From contig NZ_BKCF01000004.1 of NCBI RefSeq assembly GCF_009014635.1, positions 186,001 through 250,000 of the forward strand: DNA of 64,000 nt. Direction: 5' to 3'. Source of the DNA: Patiriisocius marinistellae (GTDB taxonomy: Bacteria; Bacteroidota; Bacteroidia; Flavobacteriales; Flavobacteriaceae). The position numbers and the translations under genes were made by a program. How positions within the stretch are numbered: position 1 is the stretch's first letter; the number at the start of each line of letters is the position of its first letter. This document shows, piece after piece, positions 25,654-27,066 of the stretch. The notes beneath the pieces are model-generated. The model had not been told where the DNA came from. It searched no databases and saw only the letters and a program-made list of their open reading frames with translations.

Positions 25654-26160
25654 CTACTCCTCTACTCTCACAAAATAAAAATCTTGTTTTTGAGGAACAC
25701 TGTCGATAAAACCTGCAACCCAAGCGTGGATTTTTTTCTTCTCAGGGTTTGTGTAAACAATTTGAGAAGGAAATTCATTTCTAGGGTTTTCAAATGTAAA
25801 AGGATGAGTTGCTCCTTCTTTTTGAGTGAAAACAACGGGATTAGGATTATCACCAACGGTTTCAACGTATAAATTTAATATTCCATTTTCCTCATACATT
25901 TTCATTTGCTCGTGAAAAACCGTGTCTTGGTCACGAAGGGTAATGCTATATGCTACTAAGCTTCCGTCATTGCTTTTCTCCCAATGTTCAAAAGATTTTG
26001 TCTCTGTATTTATATTAATCCAGTCACCTAAGAGCCATTCAAAATCTTCAAAAATAGTTTCGGTATTAGCCACAGGTGTTTCTATTTTTGTTTCTTTAAC
26101 TTCATTTTTACAGCTTATTATAAGTAGAGCAAGTAAACTAAAGGCAAGTAATTTTCTCAT
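25654..26160 (-). CDS. DUF6265-family lipoprotein
   Basis: A 168-residue lipoprotein with a signal ending in LLIISC. FEWLLGDWININTETKSFEHWEKSNDGSLVAYS, then RDQDTVFHEQM and NPRNEFPSQIVYTNP, match the DUF6265 family of small exported lipocalin-like proteins. The role is unknown. It is convergent with the DUF5916 gene and is preceded on the minus strand by the terminator at 26201-26233, which separates it from the small-ORF cluster; its own promoter must lie in the short gap (26161-26200). Confidence 0.85.
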   Translation of the reverse strand: MRKLLAFSLLALLIISCKNEVKETKIETPVANTETIFEDFEWLLGDWININTETKSFEHWEKSNDGSLVAYSITLRDQDTVFHEQMKMYEENGILNLYVETVGDNPNPVVFTQKEGATHPFTFENPRNEFPSQIVYTNPEKKKIHAWVAGFIDSVPQKQDFYFVRVEE

Positions 26161-26200: not shown

Positions 26201-26233
26201 AAAACCGAATCTTTAAAATTTAGATTCGGTTTT
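26201..26233 (-). terminator. Strong intrinsic terminator closing the small-ORF cluster
   Basis: AAAACCGAATCT (26201-26212) pairs perfectly with AGATTCGGTTTT (26222-26233) across a nine-base A/T loop. Read on the minus strand the second A-rich arm is followed by CTTTTTTGGG, so it ends leftward transcription 33 bases after the third small ORF. Confidence 0.85.
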
Positions 26234-26266
26234 CAGTGGTTGGCTACTTCAAATAGGTTTCTTTTT

Positions 26267-26383
26267 TTATAATACATTTAAAAGGGTGTCTATAGGATTA
26301 CTACGAGGAACTTTATTCAAACATTTTATGATGGGACGTAGATGATGATTCTCTCTAATTCTAATATTTCTATAAATTTTCAT
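26267..26383 (-). CDS. Small ORF 3 of the peptide cluster (38 aa, hypothetical)
   Basis: Reads leftward from ATG 26381-26383 to TAA 26267-26269 and encodes 38 residues, very basic, beginning MKIYRNIRIRENHHLRP. It contains one Cys (PIIKCLNKVPRSNP) and no signal peptide or membrane helix. It does not share the TSK...WN-x-KRRY pattern of the two ORFs upstream, but is in the same strand and position, 36 bases after the second and 33 before the strong terminator. It may be the real third gene of the transcript or a chance ORF; I cannot separate these by sight. Confidence 0.35.
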   Translation of the reverse strand: MKIYRNIRIRENHHLRPIIKCLNKVPRSNPIDTLLNVL

Positions 26384-26419
26384 GGTGGTTGGATTTAAAT
26401 TGTTAAAAAATGTCTACAT

Positions 26420-26509
26420 CTACATTTGTAAGCCGTAGCGTCTTTTTTCGTTCCAAATGGAAATTCTACTTTTTGATGTTCCGTGGTTTTGATTTCTTGA
26501 ATGTTGCAT
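26420..26509 (-). CDS. Small ORF 2 of the peptide cluster (29 aa, TSK...WN-x-KRRY)
   Basis: Reads leftward from ATG 26507-26509 to TAG 26420-26422, giving exactly 29 residues. It begins MQHSRNQNHG, then TSK, five variable residues, and WNEKRRYGLQM. The segment TSK, WN and KRRY recurs in the 29-residue ORF just upstream, although the nucleotide sequences are otherwise different, which suggests selection on the peptide. The product is strongly basic with no hydrophobic segment. I know no family for it. It may be a small regulatory, ribosome-associated or secreted peptide; none of these is shown. Confidence 0.5.
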   Translation of the reverse strand: MQHSRNQNHGTSKSRISIWNEKRRYGLQM

Positions 26510-26564
26510 AATAATATATTTAATTGTTTAAAAATTGAGTTTTGTTTTGCAGGAAAATTGCTAA

Positions 26565-26654
26565 TTAATTTCTGTAACGACGCTTACTATTCCAAGCATA
26601 TGCTTTTGAAGTTGCTACTCTTTCTGTCAAATAATTACTGTCTAATGTTCTCAT
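26565..26654 (-). CDS. Small ORF 1 of the peptide cluster (29 aa, TSK...WN-x-KRRY)
   Basis: Reads leftward from ATG 26652-26654 to TAA 26565-26567, again exactly 29 residues. It starts MRTLDSNYLTERVATSK and ends AWNSKRRYRN. Its end matches ORF 2 in TSK, WN and KRRY with equal spacing from WN to KRRY (one residue). It is nearest to the inverted repeat at 26711-26737, so it would be the first gene of the transcript. It is basic, with no signal peptide. Codon usage cannot be judged at this length. Confidence 0.5.
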   Translation of the reverse strand: MRTLDSNYLTERVATSKAYAWNSKRRYRN

Positions 26655-27066
26655 AATATAAAGTTTTTTATTGTTGTATACTTAATAGACGCATCAATCT
26701 TAATTTTGTTACAGTACTATGCAAAACAAAGTACTGTTAATTTAATAATCATTGATTATCAATCACTTAAAAGACGTGTAAATTTTAAAACTGTTACAAT
26801 TTATAATTAATATACTATTATGTAAACATATTAAGGTTTAAAAAACACCTACGGTTTACCTAAAACACAGCCAGATTTTTTACTATTATTATAGTTATCC
26901 TAATAAGTTAAATTCTAAATTAAAATAAACAGACTTCTATTTCTTCTACATTAATAGACGCTATATTTTGAAAAATGGTTGCCTGAGATTAAAAATTTTA
27001 TATAATCAACTGTAACATTTTTTTAATGTGAAACTCTTTAGTGTAATCCAATTTAAATTTCAGAAA
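26655..27066. other. Gene-free gap between small ORFs and DUF5694 gene
   Basis: About 410 AT-rich bases. Apart from the inverted repeat at 26711-26737 it holds an 11-base direct repeat, TTAATAGACGC, at 26682-26692 and 26951-26961. No further ORF is convincing. The promoter of the plus-strand DUF5694 gene is probably in the right part, near TATATTTTG at about 26962. Confidence 0.5.
26711..26737. promoter_or_regulatory. Inverted repeat upstream of the peptide cluster
   Basis: ACAGTACT (26711-26718) and AGTACTGT (26730-26737) are perfect inverted arms separated by 11 bases. They lie 57 bases upstream of the first small ORF. The minus-strand text AGTACTTTG across the right arm resembles a promoter -7 box (TACTTTG), so this looks like an operator overlapping a promoter. 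Confidence 0.5.

Follow-up and report, generated by a model that had tools for sequence, protein, structure and literature searches.

Tandem micropeptide genes behind a stress-type promoter

Many marine flavobacteria seem to carry previously undescribed genes for tiny basic peptides, arranged in tandem behind a promoter that appears wired to a cell-envelope stress system. One such array lies at positions 26,201–26,737 of a 64,000-nucleotide stretch of the Patiriisocius marinistellae genome (contig NZ_BKCF01000004.1, positions 186,001–250,000; hereafter the window). We propose, with a probability of roughly 55%, that the array is the effector arm of an envelope-stress response under PadR/ECF control.

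The three minus-strand ORFs of 29, 29 and 38 residues listed in a sequence-only reading of the block were all confirmed. ORF A (26565–26654; MRTLDSNYLTERVATSKAYAWNSKRRYRN) is a class I micropeptide (the class labels I–V used here are our own) and ORF B (26420–26509; MQHSRNQNHGTSKSRISIWNEKRRYGLQM) is a diverged class I copy that retains WN-x-KRRY at the C-terminus and has a diverged N-terminus. Both contain TSK and WN-x-KRRY, as that reading had it, and their sequences place them in a conserved micropeptide family (MRTL[ND]xNQ...WNxKRRYR) that is usually tandem and spans many Flavobacteriaceae genera. ORF C (26267–26383, 38 amino acids) is probably a class III peptide, the type found in last position. 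Its N-terminus (MK..RNIRIR) resembles that of the last ORF of sister arrays (MKKNANIRIRKW, MKKNMNIRIRKW) and its C-terminus is not conserved; with a likeness limited to the N-terminus, it is the least certain of the three.

The inverted repeats reported on either side of the ORFs are both present. Downstream, a terminator-like perfect 12-bp inverted repeat (26201–26233) lies 33 bases past the ORF C stop codon, in a 61-base stretch with a folding energy of -20.6 kcal/mol (z -4.75); it is missing from the results of a simple terminator scan, whose loop limit of 8 is below the 9 of this repeat. Rfam (at gathering scores) and tRNA searches gave zero matches within the 64-kb window. Upstream is a palindromic putative operator (AGTACTTTGTTTTGCATAGTACT, 26713–26735, extending to 26711–26737) with perfect 8-bp ends (ACAGTACT...AGTACTGT). 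It is touched by a minus-strand -35-like TGTAAC (26708–26713), followed on the same strand by a -10-like CGTCTA (26686–26691), a pair that we take to resemble an ECF-sigma promoter. The housekeeping -7 element described for the phylum is TAnnTTTG (PMC7366714), which argues that TGTAAC/CGTCTA is not a housekeeping promoter. These conserved elements move the transcript start to near 26680 from the position near 26730 suggested earlier. The inverted repeat at 26711–26737 would then precede the start and function as a DNA operator. A second exact TGTAAC-N16-CGTCTW match (26771–26798, minus strand) lies farther upstream in the same direction, 85 bases from the array promoter, and may be a tandem promoter. 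The array is followed by a gene for a DUF6265 lipoprotein (25654–26160, minus strand). A look-alike follows the arrays of two same-genus genomes (L003, L004), so the locus seems orthologous in them.

Classes and range of the peptides

Counting this one, 4 of 11 genomes of the genus had a match to ORF A; among the 5 with a completeness of 90% or more and a contamination of 5% or less, the figure was also 4. Some loci hold two or three tandem copies. The block DNA matched 29 of 98 relatives, many of the matches being limited to the DNA that immediately precedes ORF A. Homologues with a WN-x-KRRY-type motif were found in many Flavobacteriaceae genera and their substitutions fit coding selection, which bears out the claim of a resemblance beyond chance. 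The 'peptide pair' of the sequence-only reading is part of one array of a wide, multi-class family with one conserved promoter.

Class I peptides (28–29 amino acids, ending in WNSKRRYR) align to MRTLNxNQ.T......K...WNSKRRYR. Class II peptides have 36–37 amino acids (for example, MKASITKTATESKTGQYFSSFRNSKRAQWAQYRNYNR), and class III peptides have 43–44 and are often last in the array (for example, one ending in LWKGTKRYAH). Class IV is exemplified by METIHPHQLRPRIYYKIGTGWNTDRLYD... and class V, from Gramella and a Christiangramia record, by MTTLVRNTKSRKSFMNTEANSIQSSFLKRRFV. The mean net charge is +5.8 in class I, +6.7 in class II and +5.7 in class III. Across several classes, most peptides have a tryptophan and a basic-aromatic C-terminus. 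Among 130 first ORFs, 125 contain W and 94 have a basic pair plus an aromatic residue near the C-terminus (compared with 8% of shuffles); the 36 without such a C-terminus are mostly class II and IV. Classes I and II were picked by a motif containing W and RR, so the invariance of these residues is partly by choice. A pattern count in 79 named arrays, with class III taken as any other ORF of 41–46 amino acids, gave no class I/II-like ORF in 7 arrays, one in 21 and two or more in 51.

All confirmed class I matches fall within Flavobacteriaceae. A class I profile matched few genomes in the order and phylum samples (7 of 296 and 9 of 296, this genome included), many of whose genomes belong to genera without a match (for example, g74). 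Four of the nine matching phylum-sample genomes lie outside Flavobacteriaceae; one of these four (L302) has a fitting ORF, without the promoter, and no confirmed unit outside the family was found in either sample of 296 genomes. Plasmid and phage records gave zero matches at E 1 to one composed class I query and viral contigs held zero exact promoter copies, so the genes look chromosomal.

A promoter that predicts peptide genes

The units have a near-invariant promoter in which an AGTACT-N11-AGTACT palindrome overlaps or touches TGTAAC, followed after 16 bp by CGTCTA. Before most arrays the order is a pair of T(T/A)AA elements spaced by about 10 bp, a palindrome (for example, TACTTTGTTATACATAGTACT), TGTAAC, 16 bp and CGTCTA. 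The two T(T/A)AA elements, located 20–34 bases before AGTACTG in 79 named promoters, are conserved nearly as well as the palindrome and might bind a third regulator. A first ORF of 20–50 amino acids begins 20–79 bases past CGTCTA in 130 of 144 arrays.

We scanned named genomes with the promoter alone (AGTACTGTAACA-N15-CGTCTA, a 33-base pattern that holds no peptide information) and obtained at least 118 loci. Among the matches listed, 110 of the 118 precede tiny basic peptides, five precede other proteins (L092, L093, L116, L128 and L158) and three end too early to judge (L103, L180 and L187), or 110 of 115 judgeable loci. These loci were read by eye, 80 as 75 with peptides (two cut by the locus end), four with other proteins and one too short, and a further 38 as 35, one and two, respectively. 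The 80 titled loci come from Winogradskyella, Algibacter, Aquimarina, Maribacter, Eudoraea, Gramella, Hyunsoonleella, Lutibacter and other Flavobacteriaceae genera, or from records whose titles go no further than Flavobacteriia, Flavobacteriales, Bacteroidia or Bacteroidetes. In 100 Flavobacteriaceae genomes, the promoter at up to one mismatch occurred in 46 places spread over 39 genomes: 41 of these places, from 36 genomes, led to peptides, four to a secreted-looking protein of 134–188 amino acids and one to nothing evident. The promoter can thus serve as a finding tool for tiny peptide genes. The secreted-looking protein replaces the peptides behind the palindrome and ECF-type promoter at L093, L128, L158, L310, L325, L333 and L349. 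At L092 and L116, in records from Eudoraea and Muriicola, a hydrophobic protein of 71 amino acids follows the promoter; a 70-residue copy of this protein had no NCBIfam or Pfam match.

The ECF-type pattern TGTAACA-N15-CGTCTA occurred in 28 of 41 Flavobacteriaceae genomes (48 matches vs 4 for the reversed control). The 29 new loci that we read comprise 12 arrays that have the palindrome, 2 that lack it (L250, L254) and 15 loci of another kind, including genes for Pmp3-type proteins (L245, L256), rhodaneses (L244, L246, L252) and an ABC ATPase (L240); the other non-array loci may be chance. In this genome, TGTAAC-N16-CGTCTW has four exact matches in total. With one mismatch there are 41 matches, and reversing the pattern still gives 29, which makes most of the 41 chance; they include sites before an ABC ATPase and a MacB-type permease, at near chance level. 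The other genes with the promoter give at most a hint of an envelope-stress regulon. Two of the 17 sigma genes examined (of 19), both of the ECF type, have a promoter match with two mismatches upstream (in this genome, C4:293375–293575, L266; C2:179508–179693, L268), which makes them candidates for the sigma factor that would drive the array. The second is followed by a gene for a DUF4252 protein.

Selection and start context

The peptides show the excess of synonymous change expected of coding sequence. Pairs with 75–97% DNA identity, drawn from 152 arrays and not independent of each other, gave pN/pS values of 0.35 for class I (1854 pairs) and 0.20 for class II (632 pairs); the class III estimate is based on 12 pairs. 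The other two frames of the class I DNA gave 1.72 and 0.84, and first ORFs picked by position rather than by motif gave 0.32. In first ORFs of 28–29 amino acids, the last eight columns (21–28) had a pN/pS of 0.14 compared with 0.45 for the remainder. Furthermore, 249 of 264 starts have an A at -3, against 52% A across the 40 bases upstream. In Flavobacterium johnsoniae, A at -3 is described as a positive determinant of initiation (PMC6847099). The codon statistics and the A at -3 thus indicate that the peptides are translated and under selection. A block of chance ORFs, or an element that acts as RNA or DNA alone, would account for a promoter conserved in its own right, but frame-specific selection and start context rule it out, and we give it next to no weight.

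A putative operator in common with a PadR-PspC-Toastrack operon

The palindrome pattern has a single zero-mismatch site in this genome, at the array, and three sites with two mismatches. One of the latter precedes a DUF4870-PadR-PspC-DUF2807 operon, another is at the head of an operon encoding an HTH_34 winged-helix protein and the third is at L193. The array and the PadR operon therefore have a common putative operator, perfect at the former and with two mismatches at the latter. PadR is encoded here beside a PspC-LiaI-LiaF-TM-Toastrack protein and a DUF2807 protein; the PadR, PspC, LiaI-LiaF-TM and Toast-rack domains score above cut-off and HAAS, at 24.7 bits, below its cut-off of 27. The palindrome was found at 29 of 30 PadR loci, always on the upstream side of PadR and with one to three mismatches, never perfect. 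At up to four mismatches these loci gave 90 matches on both strands vs 15.4 in shuffled sequence on one strand, a fair ratio of about 90:31. PadR was found in 40 of 41 Flavobacteriaceae genomes, far more than carry arrays, so it does not need the peptides.

The palindrome could instead be bound by the HTH_34 protein, the match at the PadR operon being secondary. Two sites, AGTACTTTGAAATACAAAGTAAA (two mismatches) and AGTACTTTGTTTTTCAAAGTGAA (three mismatches), flank the HTH_34 operon in this genome, at its head and at the next gene but one (C7:46102 and C7:47081; L203, L194). Each retains the outer AGTACT at just one of its two sides, and the presence of the site at nearly all PadR loci also argues against this assignment, which we judge improbable. 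Binding by PadR is the preferred reading.

PspA was not found in this genome. Among 41 Flavobacteriaceae genomes it scored above cut-off in six: none of the 18 with box-driven arrays and 6 of the 23 others (Fisher p 0.027, not corrected for kinship), 17 genomes having neither. Two genomes were counted as lacking an array although they encode a peptide, G020 (with PspA; peptide without palindrome, L254) and G050 (degenerate promoter, L041).

Proposed role and rival functions

Putting together the peptides, the coding selection on them, their promoter and the like palindrome before the PadR operon, all read from the DNA, the block would be a stress-inducible transcription unit that yields several cytoplasmic cationic micropeptides at once. 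Envelope stress would be the inducer, an ECF sigma factor would start transcription at TGTAAC-N16-CGTCTA, and PadR would act at the putative operator touching the -35 element. The operator in common with the DUF4870-PadR-PspC/Toastrack-DUF2807 operon makes the array a likely effector arm of that envelope-stress system. In the most speculative step, the conserved basic-aromatic C-terminus might let the peptides work in place of PspA, either at the cytoplasmic face of the inner membrane or on a partner in membrane stress; among the modes of action considered we take this to be the likeliest.

The effector-arm reading is favored by the power of the promoter by itself to predict peptides (110 of 118 among the matches listed; 41 of 46 places in the 100 Flavobacteriaceae genomes), by the coding selection and the A at -3, by the palindrome at PadR loci, that of this genome included, and by the contrast between PspA and arrays. 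Against it stand the near-universal PadR, its imperfect operon sites, the rival HTH_34 sites, the arrays with the promoter and no palindrome (L250, L254) and the lack of helical amphipathicity in class I peptides. In class II, the C-terminal half is amphipathic (helical moment 0.40 vs 0.26 shuffled). AlphaFold returned low-confidence helices, with a mean pLDDT of 66.4 for a class II peptide of 37 amino acids and 73.5 for a class I peptide of 31. The more general proposal of a one-promoter effector class, in which several micropeptide classes with a common basic-aromatic C-terminus are the PadR/PspC output and do the work of PspA in Flavobacteriaceae, where it is mostly missing, is offered tentatively, as we consider it rather doubtful.

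The main rival is that the peptides are stress-induced ribosome or RNA binders whose conserved W and R contact rRNA or other RNA and adjust translation. The strong basic charge, the tight constraint on the C-terminal columns and the non-amphipathic class I peptides would suit such a role, but the control elements and the other promoter-bearing genes (Pmp3-type, ABC transporter) point to the envelope, and one class I query found no relative of solved structure (best E 0.28); we regard it as unlikely, if the strongest of the competing functions. Short, cationic peptides in tandem copies, identical in 6 of 79 named arrays, also recall exported antimicrobial or toxin-like peptides of the bacteriocin or type I toxin kind, multiplied for dose. 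No leader or hydrophobic stretch is visible by eye, and the lack of matches in plasmid and phage records at E 1 with one query also speaks against this option. Nor is there a constant partner: clustering 584 neighboring ORFs (those of at least 100 amino acids) from 80 loci revealed no constant transporter, immunity or regulated gene, the largest cluster covering 26 of 80 loci. We see little prospect for this option. A leader or arrest peptide whose translation controls a downstream gene is less probable still: the constrained residues do adjoin the stop codon, but the genes downstream vary by lineage, the array in this genome is followed by a terminator-like repeat and a leader would hardly be expected in several tandem copies. 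The effector-arm reading remains our preference among these functions.

Novelty and comparison with known systems

The sequence-only reading knew no family for these tiny basic peptides, and no family model matched them: Pfam and NCBIfam gave no match to 13 sequences, PHROGs none to 10 (best E 0.057 and 0.27) and the PADLOC defence models none to four. The strings WNSKRRYR, WNTKRRYR, KRVQWAQYRN and MRTLNNNQ were absent from the open-licence literature searched, in which no description of the peptides was found as judged by titles and the starts of abstracts. The peptides appear to be new in the sense that they fit no family or mechanism tested, which is not a claim of a new mechanism. They form an unnamed gene class behind the promoter in 36 of 100 Flavobacteriaceae genomes, unmatched by any family library searched. 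Where PspA is lacking, they are candidates for the output of PadR-PspC-Toastrack systems, and if the C-terminal motif has a binding partner they would amount to a new type of stress effector.

The peptides could hold a place analogous to that of PspA/Vipp1 as the output of a PspC-linked stress system. They differ from it in size, as the PspA_IM30 model has 220 positions and the array peptides have 28–44 amino acids and no Pfam match; a Pfam scan of 13 sequences, the peptides and short proteins related to them, did not reveal the domain. The control circuit, in turn, belongs to a type already known. Dyads of HAAS and PadR, accompanied by PspC and Toastrack, have been described in neighborhoods without pspA and proposed as an alternative to two-component control (PMC11237479). 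The PadR operon described here has such genes and a palindrome in common with the array, whereas the account of those systems used here mentions no tiny peptides among the outputs. The array is also not linked to the operon, and its promoter includes a second element, of the ECF type. In Listeria, the PadR repressor LstR is combined with sigma-C at an envelope-linked operon (PMC6624303). Its target, as described there, is a RodA/FtsW-like membrane protein and not micropeptides, but the combination of a PadR repressor with a sigma factor provides a precedent for the circuit proposed for the array.
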